Of a stretch of DNA of 30,555 nucleotides, positions 23,136 through 29,819 are shown piece by piece; within the stretch, counting starts at the first letter, position 1; each line of letters begins with the position of its first letter. Under the pieces are notes generated by a model. That model did not search any database. It saw only the letters and a program-made list of their open reading frames with translations, and was not told where the DNA came from. The position numbers and the translations under genes are program-made. Source of the stretch: a virus. The stretch covers positions 1 to 30,555 of IMG/VR virus record IMGVR_UViG_3300010885_060094; one strand, given 5' to 3'.

Positions 23136-26100
23136 ATGGCAAATACAGTCAATATTTTAGGTTTCGCTAACACATTCGGTGATTGGATTGTTGCAACCAA
23201 CGCCGACTCAAACGAAATTAATTCTATCGGTAAATACGATTGGACTAAAGATTCGGGCACATTAACACTAAACGGTACAGGCACTTCATTAGCTATTGGT
23301 AATAATGCCGTTGTGGCAGGCCAATTGCAAGTTACAGGCACAGGTTCTTCTGCAACTATTGACAACAATTTGACCGTAGGTAAACAAGTATACTTTACAA
23401 ATACTTCACAAAGTTTGACTGCAAGTGGTTCAGTTACTGCAAACGGTACTGTATATGCTAGTAACACAGGAACTGGTTTAGCTGTTGCAAATAACACCAC
23501 AATTGGTGGAACATTAACTGTAAATGGTGCAACATCGATTGCAAATACCTTAACAGTTTCTAAAGCAACAGAACTTCAAAATACATTAAGTGTTGCTAAA
23601 GATACAATAATTACAGGTAATTTAAATGCAACATTAGATACCTACACCAATTCGTTACAAGCAAATACGGTTATTAGAGCTGCAACATCTTCAGTTACAG
23701 GTGCAAGTTATACAAATACACTTCAAGCCAACACAAGTATTCTAACTGGCACAATTCAGTCTAATACCGCAGTTAATACAGCAACTCTATCAGTTACAGG
23801 TATTACTTATACCGATAAATTGCAATCTAACACTGCCGTAAATACAGCAACATCTTCAGTTACAGGTGCAAGTTACACCAACACTTTACAAGCTAATACT
23901 TCTGTAAACACTGCCACTTTATCGGTTACCGGTTCTACATACACAGATAAAATACAGGCAAATACTGCCGTAAATACAGCTACTTTATCCGTTACTGGCG
24001 CAAGTTACACCAACACTTTACAAGCTAATACAGCAGTTAATACTGCTACACTATCGGTAACTGGTGCAAGTTATTCTAATACTTTGCAAGCTAACACAAG
24101 TATTCTAACCGGAACAATACAATCAAACACAGCAGTTAATACTGCAACTTTGTCGGTTACTGGAACTACCTATACTGATAAAATACAGGCAAATACTGCC
24201 GTAAATACAGCTACTTTATCCGTTACTGGTGCAAGTTTTACCAATACTTTACAAGCTAATACAGCAGTTAACACGGCCACACTATCTGTAACTGGTGCAA
24301 GTTACACCAACACTTTACAATCAAACACAGCAGTTAATACTGCAACTTTGTCGGTTACTGGTATTTCTTATACAGATAGATTGCAATCCAATACTGCCGT
24401 TAATACTGCAACTTTATCTGTAACAGGTACTTCATACACTGATAAATTACAGGCAAATACAGCAGTTAATACTGCTACACTATCGGTAACTGGTGCAAGT
24501 TTCACCAATACACTTCAAGCAAACACAGCAGTTAACACAGCAACCTTATCAGTAACTGGTGCAAGTTTTACTAATACACTTCAAGCAAACACAGCAGTTA
24601 ACACAGCAACCTTATCAGTAACTGGAACATCGTATACAGATAAACTTCAATCTAACACAGTAGTTAATACCGCAACTTTATCTGTTGTCGGAAATACTTG
24701 GACCAATTTACTACAAGCAAACACCGTTGTAAATACTGCAACTTTATCTGTAACAGGTACTTCATACACTGATAAATTACAGGCAAATACAGCAGTTAAT
24801 ACGGCCACACTATCAGTTACTGGTATTTCTTATACCGATAAATTACAATCTAATACTGCTGTAAATACAGCTGTGTTATCTGTTGTTGGAAATACTTGGA
24901 CAAATGCTCTACAAGCTAATGCGACAGTTAATACTGCGACATTATCTGTTGTTGGAAATACTTGGACAAATGCTCTACAAGCTAATGCGACAGTTAATAC
25001 AGTCACACTATCTGTAGTTGGTACCAGTTATACAAGTTATTTGCAATCAAATAATACAGTAAACACTACTACGTTTTCAGCAACAGGAAATACTTACACC
25101 AAATATCTTATTGCAAATAATGATATTTCTGTTTCTAAACTATATGTTACAGGTACATTACTTTCAGCAACAAATGCTGTTGGTGCATTTCAATCATTAA
25201 CAACAACGCAGGGTTTGTCGGTTGGCGGAGATTTTACCATCAACGGCACCACAATATATACTTCAAACATTTTTGTAATAAATGCAAATACATATACACC
25301 AATTTCAAGTTATATAAGCGTAAATAGAGGCACAGCAAATAATGCTGCAAATGGCATACCTCTTGCAAACGCTTCAATTCGTTGGAATGAATCAAACAAA
25401 TACTGGGACATTTTAGATGTAACCAATGGTACACAATATTCGCAAATTATGACTGCGAATATGATTTCTGATAGTTCAACATCTACAAGCACTTCAACAG
25501 TACCGACAAGTAAATTATCAACTGCAATTTACGCACAGGCGAATGCGGCATTTGCACAAGCTAATGTTGCAATACCAGCAAGTTCATATGCTAATTCAGC
25601 TTTCATTACTGCTAACAATGCATTAGCTAATGTTGGTTCCATGGTTACCTCTAATAGTAATACCATGTATACCTTTGCTAATACAACAGCAGCATTGTCA
25701 AATGTCACAGGTTCTATTGTAGTATCTGGTGGCATGGGCATTCGTGGTAATGTATACACTGGTATGGTATCAATTACAGGTTCAGGTAATGGTATAACAT
25801 TTACTGATGGTACCGTGCAGACAACAAATGTATCTGCCGCTGTCGGTTCATATGCCAATTCAGCTTTCATTACTGCTAACAATGCACTGGCGAATACTGG
25901 CGCTTCAGTAACAGCTAATGGTAGTACAACATACACATTCTCCAATGTGACACCATCATTATCTAATGTCACAGGTTCGGTTGTTATTACTGGCGGCCTA
26001 GGTGTTCGTGGTAATGTTTACACAGGTAATGTTGTAATTACAGGTTCAGGTAATGGTATCGTTTTCGTAGATGGAACTGTACAGACTACGGCAGGATCAC

Positions 26101-27857
26101 CTGCAGCTTCTGTATATGCTAATGCGGCGTTTGCACAGGCTAACATAGCAACACCAGCTAGTTCTTATGCTAACGGTGCTTTCGCTGCTGCTAATAATGC
26201 CAACGCTAATGCTGCAATAGCAAGTTCATATGCAAATTCAGCTTATCTTACTGCCAATAACGCCTTAGCTAACACTGGTATTGCAGTAACAGCTAACGGT
26301 TTAACTGTATATTCATTTGCTAATGCAACATCATCCACATCAAATACTACTGGTTCTATTGTTATTACTGGCGGCCTAGGTGTTCGTGGTAATGTTTATA
26401 CAGGTAATGTTGTAATTACAGGTTCAGGTAATGGTATAACATTCACCGATGGTACAGTACAAACAACCAATGTATCTGCTGCATCACCTGTTTATGCCAA
26501 CGGTGCCTTCGTAGCAGCTAATACAGCTAGTTCCAATGCAGCTTCGGCAAGTTCTTATGCTAACGGCGCATTTGCTGCATCCAATACTGCAAGTAATAAT
26601 GCAACATCAGCTGGTTCTTATGCCAACTCGGCTTTTGGTATAGCCAATACTGCAAGTAATAATGCAACATCAGCTGGTTCTTATGCCAACTCGGCGTTTG
26701 TTAAAGCTAACAATGCATTGGCTAACACCGGTGTATCAGTAACTTCGAATAATTTAACCTCATATATTTTCGCCAATACGACAATTTCTACATCAAATGT
26801 TACAGGTTCTATCGTAATATCTGGCGGCCTAGGTGTTCGTGGTAATGTTTACACAGGTAATGTTGTAATTACAGGTTCAGGTAACGGTATAGTATTTACC
26901 GACGGTACAGTACAAACAACAGCTGGTTCACCTGCAGCTTCTGTATATGCTAATGCTGCTTTCGCTCTAGCTAATACTGCAAGTAATACTGCAACATCAG
27001 CTGATTCATACGCAAACAGTGCATTCATTAGAGCAAATAACTCATTAAATGTACAATCTGGTGGTACAGTTACAGGCGATTTGAATCTTTCTGGTAATTT
27101 ATTTGTTAATGGCACAACAACATATATTAATGTTGCGACATTTCAGACAGTTGATTCATTGATTGAATTAGCTGCAAACAATCTTGGAGATTCGGTTGAT
27201 ATTGGTTTTTATGGTCAGTATGTAAGCTCAGGTACAAAGTATAGTGGTTTAGTAAGAACAGCATCATCTAACTGGACATTATTCCAAGGTATTACAACTA
27301 ATCCAACAAGTAATTCAATTGGCACAATAACATATTCGAATTACGGAACACTTAACGCAAATATTACGGCCGGACAAATAACTTCATCACAACCAATTTT
27401 GCCGGCATCAGGTGGTACAGGCCTAACTTCACCTACAGCTAATAGCATAATGATTGGGAATGGTGCAAATGCAATGAGATTACTTGCACCAGGAACATCA
27501 GGAAATGTTGCAGTGTCGGATGGTACAAACTGGTACTCAGGTGCCGCAGCACCGACAGTATCATTCAGCAATGATTTAGCTACTGCAACTCCTGTTTATC
27601 CACTATTCTCATCAGCTACAACAGGTGCTGCAATAGCATTATATACAGCCAATGCAAGATTACTATATACACCATCTACTGGTCAGTTTAGTTCAAATAC
27701 ATTTATTGCAACTAACGGAATAATTCAAAACAGCAATACAGTATCATCTAGTTATACAATTGCTGCAGGAAATAATGGTTTATCAGCTGGACCTATGACA
27801 GTACCATCTGGCCAGACTGTTACAGTTTCTTCTGGTGCTGTTTGGACTATAGTTTAA
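23136..27857 (+). CDS. Long repetitive tail fibre, 1573 aa
   Basis: Residues 1-60 ('FANTFGDWIVATNADSNEIN', 'YDWTKDSGTLTLNGTGTSLA') form an N-terminal module typical of fibres of T4-like aquatic phages, probably the baseplate anchor. Residues about 60-165 are beta repeats ('TGSSATIDNNLTVGKQVYF'). Residues 168-673 contain 22 tandem units of 22 residues (two with 33). Residues about 800-1310 contain four copies of a 'GGLGVRGNVYTGNVVITGSG' and 'DGTVQTT' module, joined by Ala/Asn-rich repeats such as 'SYANSAFITANNALANTG'. Then come 'GTTTYINVATFQTVDSLIEL' and 'DIGFYGQYVSSGTKYSGLVR', a conserved C-terminal region, and a final beta tip, 'NNGLSAGPMTVPSGQTVTVS'. The protein is Thr/Asn/Ala/Ser-rich with little charge, as in trimeric fibres. 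It probably reaches to the host surface. AGG lies within the overlapping end of the upstream gene. Confidence 0.88.
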   Translation: MANTVNILGFANTFGDWIVATNADSNEINSIGKYDWTKDSGTLTLNGTGTSLAIGNNAVVAGQLQVTGTGSSATIDNNLTVGKQVYFTNTSQSLTASGSVTANGTVYASNTGTGLAVANNTTIGGTLTVNGATSIANTLTVSKATELQNTLSVAKDTIITGNLNATLDTYTNSLQANTVIRAATSSVTGASYTNTLQANTSILTGTIQSNTAVNTATLSVTGITYTDKLQSNTAVNTATSSVTGASYTNTLQANTSVNTATLSVTGSTYTDKIQANTAVNTATLSVTGASYTNTLQANTAVNTATLSVTGASYSNTLQANTSILTGTIQSNTAVNTATLSVTGTTYTDKIQANTAVNTATLSVTGASFTNTLQANTAVNTATLSVTGASYTNTLQSNTAVNTATLSVTGISYTDRLQSNTAVNTATLSVTGTSYTDKLQANTAVNTATLSVTGASFTNTLQANTAVNTATLSVTGASFTNTLQANTAVNTATLSVTGTSYTDKLQSNTVVNTATLSVVGNTWTNLLQANTVVNTATLSVTGTSYTDKLQANTAVNTATLSVTGISYTDKLQSNTAVNTAVLSVVGNTWTNALQANATVNTATLSVVGNTWTNALQANATVNTVTLSVVGTSYTSYLQSNNTVNTTTFSATGNTYTKYLIANNDISVSKLYVTGTLLSATNAVGAFQSLTTTQGLSVGGDFTINGTTIYTSNIFVINANTYTPISSYISVNRGTANNAANGIPLANASIRWNESNKYWDILDVTNGTQYSQIMTANMISDSSTSTSTSTVPTSKLSTAIYAQANAAFAQANVAIPASSYANSAFITANNALANVGSMVTSNSNTMYTFANTTAALSNVTGSIVVSGGMGIRGNVYTGMVSITGSGNGITFTDGTVQTTNVSAAVGSYANSAFITANNALANTGASVTANGSTTYTFSNVTPSLSNVTGSVVITGGLGVRGNVYTGNVVITGSGNGIVFVDGTVQTTAGSPAASVYANAAFAQANIATPASSYANGAFAAANNANANAAIASSYANSAYLTANNALANTGIAVTANGLTVYSFANATSSTSNTTGSIVITGGLGVRGNVYTGNVVITGSGNGITFTDGTVQTTNVSAASPVYANGAFVAANTASSNAASASSYANGAFAASNTASNNATSAGSYANSAFGIANTASNNATSAGSYANSAFVKANNALANTGVSVTSNNLTSYIFANTTISTSNVTGSIVISGGLGVRGNVYTGNVVITGSGNGIVFTDGTVQTTAGSPAASVYANAAFALANTASNTATSADSYANSAFIRANNSLNVQSGGTVTGDLNLSGNLFVNGTTTYINVATFQTVDSLIELAANNLGDSVDIGFYGQYVSSGTKYSGLVRTASSNWTLFQGITTNPTSNSIGTITYSNYGTLNANITAGQITSSQPILPASGGTGLTSPTANSIMIGNGANAMRLLAPGTSGNVAVSDGTNWYSGAAAPTVSFSNDLATATPVYPLFSSATTGAAIALYTANARLLYTPSTGQFSSNTFIATNGIIQNSNTVSSSYTIAAGNNGLSAGPMTVPSGQTVTVSSGAVWTIV
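23637..25154 (+). repeat. 22 tandem in-frame 66-base repeats (11+11 residue units)
   Basis: The consensus unit is 22 residues: a first half like ASYTNTLQANT and a second half like AVNTATLSVTG. I count 22 units; 20 have 22 residues and two (starting near residues 190 and 311) have 33, gaining an 11-residue 'SILTGTIQSNT' half. Total is 506 residues, 1518 bases. First halves alternate between ASYTN, ASFTN, TSYTDK, ISYTDK and NTWTN types. Some neighbouring copies are almost identical at DNA level, which fits recent duplication. Confidence 0.92.
25727..26890 (+). repeat. Four dispersed copies of a 69-base fibre module
   Basis: Copies lie at 25727-25795, 25991-26059, 26369-26437 and 26822-26890. 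Each codes for a GGLGVRGNVYTG-type segment followed by a VVITGSGNG-type strand. Copies 2, 3 and 4 are nearly identical in DNA, including third codon positions; copy 1 has diverged. Spacings are 264, 378 and 453 bases, so the linkers with Ala/Asn repeats grow in length toward the 3' end. Confidence 0.88.
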
Positions 27858-27869
27858 AGGAAAAAAATG
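27855..27869 (+). promoter_or_regulatory. Identical 15-base junction TAAAGGAAAAAAATG, copy 2
   Basis: Stop of the long fibre, AAAGG ribosome site, and start of the S74 fibre-tip gene. Identical in all 15 bases to the junctions at 15901 and 29517. Confidence 0.85.
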
Positions 27870-28694
27870 AGTTCAGTATCAATACAACCAAATTCTGGAG
27901 GAACAGGAGTCTTTACGATTGCGGCTCCTTCAACTTCAAGTAATTACACTTTGTCATTGCCCACTGTTACCGGCGGGAGTTTTATTGCTAGTGATGGAAG
28001 CGGAAACGTGGGGATTGGCGGTGGTGTTCCCGCAAGCAATCCCAAAGTAAGTTTGTACGGGGGTATTCGGTTTTTAGCAAACGAAGCTGCCACTGCCACC
28101 TATACAGGCATTGGAAGTATTGCGACTGATACTGTAAGCATCAGCACTTCGGGCTATGAACGGATGCGTGTTGATACCGGCGGCAATTTTTTGCTAAACA
28201 CTACTTCAGTTGGGGGAAGATTTTCTATGCGGTACGACAGTAGTGTTGAACAAGGCTTAGTTATTCGCACTACCTCCGCCACATTTTCTGGTAGCCCTGT
28301 GGTGTTTCAGAATAACTCCGGCGGTACTTCTGGTTTTATTGGTCAAACAGCCACAACGGTATCCTACAGCACATCATCCGATTACCGCCTCAAAGAAGAC
28401 ATTGTTCCGATGACCAGCGTGTTGGAAAAAGTGGCCGCACTCAAGCCTGTCACATATAAGTGGAAGGTAGATGGCTCAGCCGGTGAAGGTTTTATCGCTC
28501 ATGAGCTGGCTGAAGTTTGCCCTCAAGCAGTGACAGGAGAGAAAGATGCGGTCGATGCTGACGGTAACCCGCAATACCAAGGTATTGATGTGTCTTTTTT
28601 GGTGGCAACCCTGACCGCAGCCATCCAAGAGCAGCAAGCCATCATTACTTCTCTAACGTCTCGGGTTGCAGCCTTGGAAGAAAAAAAAGTATGA
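27867..28694 (+). CDS. Fibre tip with S74 intramolecular chaperone
   Basis: Residues 1-35 ('SIQPNSGGTGVFTIAAPSTS') and 'GNVGIGGGVPASNPKVSLYG' form a tail-fibre or spike head seen in many environmental phages. The last 105 residues form an S74 peptidase/chaperone domain of the endosialidase type: 'SSDYRLKEDIVPM', 'VLEKVAALKPVTYKWKVDGS', 'GFIAHELAEVCPQAVTGEKD' and a C-terminal coiled coil, 'LTAAIQEQQAIITSLTSRVA'. The dyad is visible as Ser171 and Lys176, with the same five-residue spacing as in endosialidase NF. The domain helps trimers fold and then cuts itself off before Ser171. Base composition is unusual: three 60-base stretches that I counted are 47-50% GC, against 32% in one counted stretch of the neighbouring fibre. 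The shift begins near 27960. This points to recent acquisition. Confidence 0.93.
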   Translation: MSSVSIQPNSGGTGVFTIAAPSTSSNYTLSLPTVTGGSFIASDGSGNVGIGGGVPASNPKVSLYGGIRFLANEAATATYTGIGSIATDTVSISTSGYERMRVDTGGNFLLNTTSVGGRFSMRYDSSVEQGLVIRTTSATFSGSPVVFQNNSGGTSGFIGQTATTVSYSTSSDYRLKEDIVPMTSVLEKVAALKPVTYKWKVDGSAGEGFIAHELAEVCPQAVTGEKDAVDADGNPQYQGIDVSFLVATLTAAIQEQQAIITSLTSRVAALEEKKV

Positions 28695-28726
28695 CCGATG
28701 TAATCAACGTAACCAACGGTCTTTTT
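28693..28726 (+). terminator. Weak candidate terminator after the S74 gene
   Basis: GACCG at 28693-28697, overlapping the TGA stop, can pair with CGGTC at 28717-28721, followed by five T's at 28722-28726. The stem is only 5 bp and the loop is 19 bases, so activity is doubtful. The 87-base gap to the next gene otherwise holds AAGGG at 28771-28775, the ribosome site of the next gene. Confidence 0.3.
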
Positions 28727-28781
28727 ACGAATAAATCATAATAATTGTAAGATTAAAAACAAAATATCCTAAGGGTTAAAC

Positions 28782-29519
28782 ATGGCATCAAAAATTGACG
28801 GAACAAATGGTCTAATACAGAATTACATTTACTTGGATGGAACTGGAACAACAACTCCAACTATATTATCAGGTTTTAATTATACTATTCCATCGGGTGT
28901 TCAAAATGTTATATTGAATCCTTCCTCTACATATGCTGTTGGAACTATTGTCTTACCTGCAAATCCTGCGGATGGGATGACAGTAACCATGAGTACAACA
29001 CAACAGATTACTGGATTCACTGTTTCTGCTAGCGCAGGACAATCAGTTTCTGGTGGTTTTTCCGGAACAGTGTTCCAAGCTAAAACAGCTGTGTCGTATG
29101 TTTACAATTCAACCAAATCAACTTGGTATCCTTTCACAGCTATTTCACCTTACATTTTGCCAGCTCCATCAACGTCAGGCAATCTATTGACAAGTGACGG
29201 AACAATTTGGAATTCAACAGCCGCTTCTGCGATTGCAGCAGGTATTGGTGTTGGTCAAACTTGGCAGGCCGTTGTTCGTTTAGTCGCAACAACATATACA
29301 AATAGTACAGGAAAACCAATTATCGTGGCACCTTGGTTTGTTTTACCACTTAATTCTAGTGCTGCCATTACCGTGGCTGGAATTCAAGCTGCATACTTAA
29401 CTACAGGTGGTGCCGCCGGTAATAATACGCAAATGAATGCTCTTGTTCCGGCTGGAGCAACTTATGTATTCGCAGTAACCGGATCCGGATCGTTAAATTC
29501 ATGCACAGAACTTCGTTAA
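28782..29519 (+). CDS. Second fibre tip protein with GVGQTWQ-type C-terminal domain
   Basis: The 245-residue protein has an N-terminal region (residues 1-125) of beta-strands with 'YTIPSGVQNVILNPSSTYAV' and 'TMSTTQQITGFTVSASAGQS', similar to other aquatic phage fibre shafts. From residue about 160 it has 'GIGVGQTWQAVVRLVATTYT' and 'NSTGKPIIVAPWFVLP', ending 'PAGATYVFAVTGSGSLNSCT'. This C-terminal domain is common at the tip of tail fibres in many unrelated phages and is likely receptor-binding. Its base composition is AT-rich like the rest of the window, unlike the S74 gene just before it. AAGGG lies 6 bases before the ATG. No S74 or other chaperone is fused to it. Confidence 0.85.
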   Translation: MASKIDGTNGLIQNYIYLDGTGTTTPTILSGFNYTIPSGVQNVILNPSSTYAVGTIVLPANPADGMTVTMSTTQQITGFTVSASAGQSVSGGFSGTVFQAKTAVSYVYNSTKSTWYPFTAISPYILPAPSTSGNLLTSDGTIWNSTAASAIAAGIGVGQTWQAVVRLVATTYTNSTGKPIIVAPWFVLPLNSSAAITVAGIQAAYLTTGGAAGNNTQMNALVPAGATYVFAVTGSGSLNSCTELR

Positions 29520-29531
29520 AGGAAAAAAATG
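29517..29531 (+). promoter_or_regulatory. Identical 15-base junction TAAAGGAAAAAAATG, copy 3
   Basis: Stop of the second fibre tip, AAAGG ribosome site, and start of the next gene. With copy 2 it brackets the S74 gene and the second tip gene, 1662 bases apart. Confidence 0.85.
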
Positions 29532-29819
29532 AAATTATTTAAAGATTCAAACAATACAATATGGGCATTTGAGCTTGATGGAAGTCAAGATGATTTGATT
29601 AAATCTGACATGATTTCCATTACCAAAGAAGAAGCGGATGTAATTATTGCTCAAAACCAAAAGAATAAATTTGATGCATTATCTTATGTGGAAAAAAGAC
29701 AAAGTGAGTACCCACCAATCGTTAATTACCTCGATGGACTTGTAAAAGGTGACACGGAACAAATGCAGACATACATTGATGCCTGTTTGGCGGTGAAAGC
29801 TAAATACCCAAAACAATAA
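29529..29819 (+). CDS. Small tail-fibre accessory/assembly-type protein, 96 aa
   Basis: The protein starts 'MKLFKDSNNTIWAFELDGSQ', a beta pair, followed by 'ISITKEEADVIIAQNQKNKF'. The second half has the recurring phage pattern 'SYVEKRQSEYPPIVNYLDGL', then 'DTEQMQTYIDACLAVKAKYP' (R-x(3)-Y-P-x(3)-x-L-D ... V-K-A-K-Y-P). Small proteins with this tail are commonly encoded just after fibre genes, where they are called tail-fibre assembly or XkdW-like proteins. A chaperone role is therefore likely but not proven. It has the strong TAAAGGAAAAAAATG start and ends 66 bases before the next gene, in a gap that carries a candidate late promoter. Confidence 0.8.
   Translation: MKLFKDSNNTIWAFELDGSQDDLIKSDMISITKEEADVIIAQNQKNKFDALSYVEKRQSEYPPIVNYLDGLVKGDTEQMQTYIDACLAVKAKYPKQ

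Follow-up and report, generated by a model that had tools for sequence, protein, structure and literature searches.

A T4-like phage with part of its fibre-tip locus replaced by a cassette, very probably from an unrelated lineage

The window, which is the whole stretch of 30,555 nucleotides analysed here, belongs to a T4-like phage of freshwater type and carries baseplate genes of the gp6, gp25, gp53 and gp48/gp54 types (phrog_219, 261, 232, 230 and others). Its nearest isolated relatives by gp6, among them Methylophilales phage Melnitz and Pelagibacter phage HTVC008M, are only 29–39% identical. Uncultured contigs are much closer, with gp6 identities of 76% (L083), 83% (the contig of L084) and 84% (L085), and in L107 the protein is 100% identical over 492 aa. 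One gene of the window, at 27867–28694 on the plus strand, codes for a fibre-tip protein with a C-terminal S74 domain and has a GC content of 0.477 and a third-position GC content (GC3) of 0.406, while GC is 36% elsewhere in the window. An earlier note, made from the letters alone, had read this gene as a compositional island, probably of recent acquisition. The locus raises the question of whether a foreign gene has entered here, what it displaced and where it came from.

We favour an explanation in which the tip gene is a chimera, very probably produced when a cassette from an unrelated, L005-like lineage of about 52% GC replaced part of a T4-like fibre-tip locus.

Replacement of the resident tip gene

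The resident arrangement is kept in two sister contigs, L083 and L084. Both share with the window the upstream fibre gene and, downstream, the second tip gene, the 96-aa gene and a 122-aa gene. At the locus itself they possess a tip gene of 303 or 308 aa with the head MSSVSIQPNSGG..., an AT-rich body without S74 and the C-terminal ending ELR, and this is followed by a small gene of 87 or 93 aa (7724–7987 in L083, 7580–7861 in L084).

The window agrees with these contigs at both ends of the exchanged region. Identity to both is complete immediately ahead of the ATG and over the first ~35 coding bases of the tip gene, and across codons 1–29 (27867–27954) DNA identity is 89% to L084 and 82% to L083 but only 60% to L005. 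Identity to the sister contigs remains high up to about 27955 and is near chance thereafter. At the other end, 26 bases (28756–28781) are exactly identical to the ends of both small genes, and the start of the following gene matches too. This pattern shows that the window retained the head at one end and a few final codons of the small gene at the other, and that everything between them was replaced.

In an ancestry scan along the tip gene, informative sites were assigned with L084 as the resident and L005 as the donor-type reference. Up to 27951, the last L084-matching site, 27 of 29 sites are resident-like, while from 27955, the first L005-matching site, 41 of 45 are donor-like (hypergeometric 9e-14). 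The ancestry of the gene switches once, between these two positions, and a protein made of two segments of different ancestry with a locatable join fits a mosaic receptor-binding protein. The earlier proposal of an acquired part joined to a resident start is thus borne out, with codons 1–29 matching the sister phages.

The right junction probably lies between ~28735 and ~28756. Here, the S74 stop is overlapped through ATGA by a 16-codon ORF, MTDVINVTNGLFTNKS, as the S74 stop of L005 is overlapped by the next gene, whose start MTLALSGTNGLLQN is similar to the ORF (shuffle p 0.0002; the comparison was selected post hoc). Judged by this similarity, the ORF is probably the truncated start of the next tip gene of the donor. 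The exchange extends beyond the S74 gene and removed a small gene as well.

The ancestral locus would have had the order seen in L083 and L084, namely fibre gene, tip gene (head module plus ELR-ending body), small gene of 87–93 aa, second tip gene and small gene. The cassette entered in frame at 27951–27955, within a head module carried by donor and recipient alike, and took the place of the first tip gene's body and of almost the whole small gene. It would have ended at ~28735–28756, and two scars would mark its exit: the beginning of the gene that came next in the donor, and the final ~28 bases of the small gene that was resident here. The features of the locus are listed in Table 1.

Table 1. 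Fibre-tip locus of the window, with positions counted from the first letter of the window.
Feature	Position	Strand	Basis or remark
Long fibre gene, resident	23136..27857	+	66-base tandem repeats; N-terminal part 65–69%, C-terminal part 56–66% identical in L084 and L083
Resident 5' part of tip gene, codons 1–29, common head module MSSVSIQPNSGGTGVFTIAAPSTSSNYTL	27867..27954	+	DNA identity and resident-type codons
Left crossover point	27951..27955	.	Informative-site switch from L084 to L005
Acquired gene part: LPTVTGGSF... body (to ~aa 168) and C-terminal Peptidase_S74 / intramolecular chaperone domain	27955..28694	+	L005 DNA identity, GC and codon shift
PF13884 Peptidase_S74 core, aa 171–223	28377..28535	+	Pfam match, E 2e-13
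16-codon ORF MTDVINVTNGLFTNKS, ATGA overlap with S74 stop	28691..28741	+	Similar to start of next gene in L005
Remnant of resident small gene 3' end (KTKYPKG stop), just before next tip gene	28754..28781	+	Exact match to L083 and L084
Second tip gene, resident, 245 aa, ends ...ELR	28782..29519	+	53% / 59% aa identical to L083 / L084 homologues, same position
Small gene, resident, 96 aa; putative fibre helper, paralogous to the one removed at the right junction	29529..29819	+	80% aa identical in L083; PHROGs 9114/2687, function not assigned

The donor-type lineage and the age of the exchange

L005 is a contig of 35.9 kb and 50–52% GC with an unrelated terminase (phrog_38) and a portal of another family (phrog_1216). 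The S74 domain of the window is 92% identical in amino acids to that of L005 and 90% to that of L006, whereas identity to the fibre-fused S74 domains of its own clade is 23–34% (one short partial alignment reaches 39% over 31 aa). At the DNA level, identity to L005 is 82% just past the switch and 81% over 28363–28695; the middle of the tip body (~28019–28360) has no close DNA match. The gene order of L005 is a gene ending SGSVWSIV, then the tip gene (MSSIAIQ...TLPTVTGGSF...S74), then the ATGA-overlapping gene. The long fibre gene of the window ends ...SSGAVWTIV, and its C-terminal module is also present in the gene directly upstream of the L005 tip gene.

The S74 tree, which is based on 108 columns and is mostly unresolved outside this grouping, places the window's domain with L005 (support 100/82) and L006 (99/90). 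It thus conflicts with the structural genes, the comparison which the earlier note had proposed as a check, as L005 is without a gp6 match whereas the closest structural relatives of the window possess gp6. A search with the window's gp6 found no homologue in L005 or in 15 other S74 contigs, which may be incomplete; the positive control gave matches in all four T4-like contigs tested.

On sequence grounds we regard L005 as donor-type, with the actual donor unsampled, for the nearest donor-type DNA is just 81% identical and the donor is thus absent from the collections searched. A scan of bacterial genomes yielded a single weak relative (34%, L208), so that no prophage donor was identified, and a DNA search of isolated phages returned short pieces only.

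A second GC-richer tip island is found in the L085 contig at 57.3–66.3 kb (L211 1310–5765, L212). It contains two S74 genes that are 75–82% identical to that of the window and have a GC3 of 0.30–0.38 beside genes at 0.12–0.20, while the L085 fibre itself ends in a different S74 domain of resident type. As this contig holds two donor-type S74 genes, such tip genes have entered the clade of the window on more than one occasion, or are handed on by it.

The L085 genes are also the reason to consider a second-hand transfer, in which a related T4-like phage, having imported S74 genes of this kind at an earlier time, supplied the cassette. The contig is a close relative (gp6 84%) and its S74 tip genes stand out in GC3 from their AT-rich neighbours, but neither copy has the arrangement of the window gene and both are more distant from it than L005 is (75–82% versus 92%). 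We consider this indirect route unlikely, although it is the alternative that survives best.

The acquisition had been taken as probably recent, and this is only partly upheld. By these comparisons it dates from after the split from L083 and L084 but is not brand new, given the 81% identity of the nearest donor-type DNA and some sign of AT drift. In the S74 part, window-specific changes comprise 27 from GC to AT and 9 from AT to GC (binomial p 0.004). The corresponding ratios on the comparison branches are 7:4 and 10:8, and the difference from the window is not significant (Fisher test, p 0.19). The data are at most suggestive of a drift of the S74 part toward the AT-rich composition of the recipient.

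These AT-ward changes also argue, if weakly, against misassembly, in which the S74 sequence of another phage would have been joined into the contig by the assembler. Such an error might be suspected from the sharp change between two lineages at the join, and from exact and degenerate DNA scans of viral_contigs (with records near the window possibly left out), in which no second contig with the left-junction peptide or the right junction was found. Both flanks, however, are resident and syntenic with L083 and L084, so that two false joins would be required; the left join is in frame inside the shared head module, the 27:9 ratio fits residence in an AT-rich genome, and the right end has gene scars rather than a clean join. 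An assembly chimera is therefore very improbable.

Slightly less probable still is an S74 cassette that was ancestral to the clade and has been lost or replaced in both L083 and L084. S74 domains are indeed common among the T4-like relatives (22 of 49 contigs), and two genes of the window's type occur in L085. Ancestry within the clade is nevertheless difficult to reconcile with fibre-fused domains of close relatives that are just 23–34% identical when L005 reaches 92%, and with the foreign codon usage of the gene. The small-gene remnant, moreover, gives the order of events, with the small gene present first and the replacement following.

Composition and codon usage

The step in GC that first drew attention to the gene is real. 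In 300-base windows, GC rises from 0.36 (27601–27900) to 0.47–0.50 (27901–28650) and drops to 0.33 by 28651–28950. The maximum-scoring GC segment, 27895–28677 with a GC of 0.49, has a score of 27.6, compared with a top score of 16.2 in 300 first-order Markov simulations, and the best 828-base window outside the S74 gene has a GC of 0.426. The fall had been placed at 28695; the GC-rich tract continues for ~40 bases beyond the S74 stop, to ~28735.

Codon choice changes as well. Synonymous codons were scored by log-likelihood under a donor-type model of 52% GC versus a resident model, and codons 1–29 gave −0.38 per codon, similar to resident genes (mean −0.33), while codons 30–275 gave +0.22, with −0.22 as the best of 96 equal-length resident chunks. 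The cumulative minimum falls at codon 31 (nt 27960), the position at which the earlier note had put the change. A step is present in the GC and codon-usage profiles alike, so neither of the two refutations named in that note, a profile without a step or an S74 tree congruent with the structural genes, is borne out.

GC3 is 0.17–0.29 in the 18 other plus-strand genes of the window. The S74 domain does not by itself impose a high value, as GC3 in 79 other S74 genes follows the GC of their flanks (r = 0.76) and is mostly 0.17–0.23 where the flanks have 36–40% GC; the window gene has the largest positive residual (z = +2.9). A GC rise without transfer, caused by amino-acid content or by local selection on the tip protein, can be dismissed. 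Fibre proteins rich in Gly, Ala and Thr do have elevated GC at the first two codon positions, and neighbouring fibre regions are at GC 0.41–0.43, but the third positions are shifted too (0.41 versus 0.17–0.29), S74 genes in AT-rich flanks mostly have a GC3 near 0.2, and the replacement is directly visible in the sister loci and the tree. The sister alignment, the comparison of S74 genes with their flanks, the ancestry switch and the codon usage refute this reading.

We rejected GC3 by itself as proof of import, since values above 0.33 were also found in 8 of 189 clade genes, mostly gp2/gp4-like genes on the minus strand; those in the window have an ordinary total GC. In the clade, such minus-strand genes reach a GC3 of 0.40 (0.34 for 278–901 (−) in the window; a further case is L101 2361–3428). 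Three other S74 genes (L048, L056 and L062) have a GC3 of 0.36–0.51, well above the prediction from their AT-rich flanks, and may represent further imports.

The tip protein, its head module and known systems

The PF13884 match at the C-terminus of the 275-aa protein has 50.7 bits at a cut-off of 22. Ser171 and Lys176, within TSSDYRLK, are invariant in 27 sequences and are the candidate catalytic pair, with the same spacing of five residues as the Ser/Lys dyad (S578/K583) of the MYRF homologue (PMC3742443). A long C-terminal helix is predicted for aa 242–274. The AlphaFold monomer model is of low confidence (pLDDT 65, pTM 0.33); when compared with the PDB it gave nothing significant, and 3gw6, a known S74 structure, appeared only at E 1.6 or worse, while comparison with predicted viral S74 proteins gave E-values down to 8e-14 with low TM-scores. 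Searches of solved structures by sequence, with the protein and with a profile, gave no match. The S74 domain is expected to be a folding chaperone that is cleaved off, with the body ahead of it as the adhesive part.

The retained head module would dock the tip protein on the resident fibre and the acquired body would be the distal, host-contacting part, while the S74 domain would drive trimer folding and then cleave itself at Ser171 using Lys176. With a chaperone supplied in cis by the new tip, the small gene, a putative helper of the old tip, may have become dispensable and could thus be lost.

Small paralogous genes of 87–96 aa, ending KxKYPKx, are each located after an ELR-ending tip gene (window 29529–29819; L083; L084), and have PHROGs matches without an assigned function. 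Their position suggests tip-specific helpers and, as they follow ELR-type tips in the sisters and in the window, a role which such tips may require and an S74 tip may not.

The head module is present on the tip genes of many other phages (40–63% GC) with different bodies, which makes docking at the end of the fibre a plausible role for it. We tentatively extend this to a broader idea, to which we give somewhat less than an even chance, that a head module of ~30–35 residues (MSxVxIQxNxxGxGVFTIAxPxxxxNYTLxLP) acts as a portable docking piece and recombination hinge across the tips of unrelated phages, so that whole tips are exchanged in one step together with their folding mode, here from a separate helper to a built-in, self-cleaving chaperone.

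Phages are known to alter their binding targets by swapping fibre tips. The swap in the window is ordinary in kind, as the general process is already well established, but it is unusually clear in detail: in all likelihood it is a well-resolved natural case of a T4-like phage exchanging its fibre tip with an unrelated phage, with the shared head at the join, the displaced gene pair in the sisters and the scars visible together. It provides a concrete candidate for a docking module, and a candidate case in which a separate helper was exchanged for a chaperone built into the tip.

A survey of receptor-binding proteins reported that tail fibres and spikes have recently exchanged domains, rarely between members of different taxonomic families, and named the intramolecular chaperone domain as one that takes part in the mosaicism (PMC10684548). 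Compared with that mosaicism, the window offers one resolved event: the join is placed within ~5 bases, sister phages preserve the resident alternative, and gene scars remain. In the distantly related Alteromonas phages V22, A5 and P24, a host-recognition module of tail fibre and chaperone has moved between unrelated morphotypes (PMC10579305). In that case the shared units are complete fibre-chaperone modules in which the chaperones have genes of their own, whereas in the window a tip and the separate small gene behind it gave way to a tip whose chaperone is built in and predicted to cleave itself.

As in endosialidase and the T5 L-shaped fibre (PF13884), the window protein has a C-terminal S74 domain, an invariant Ser and Lys five residues apart and a predicted long C-terminal helix, but it is short, with a small body, and is not an enzyme-bearing spike, and its cleavage is a prediction. 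The fibres of L085, L086 and L088–L095, from the same clade and region, likewise have a Pfam S74 domain at the C-terminus; unlike that of the window, it is part of a long fibre gene, and it belongs to the divergent group (23–34% identity) described above. The long fibre gene varies strongly in length among the relatives, from 884 to 1573 aa, and in the window its tandem 66-base units (22 aa, ...SYTNTLQANTAVNTATLSVTG...) occupy 23761–25021.
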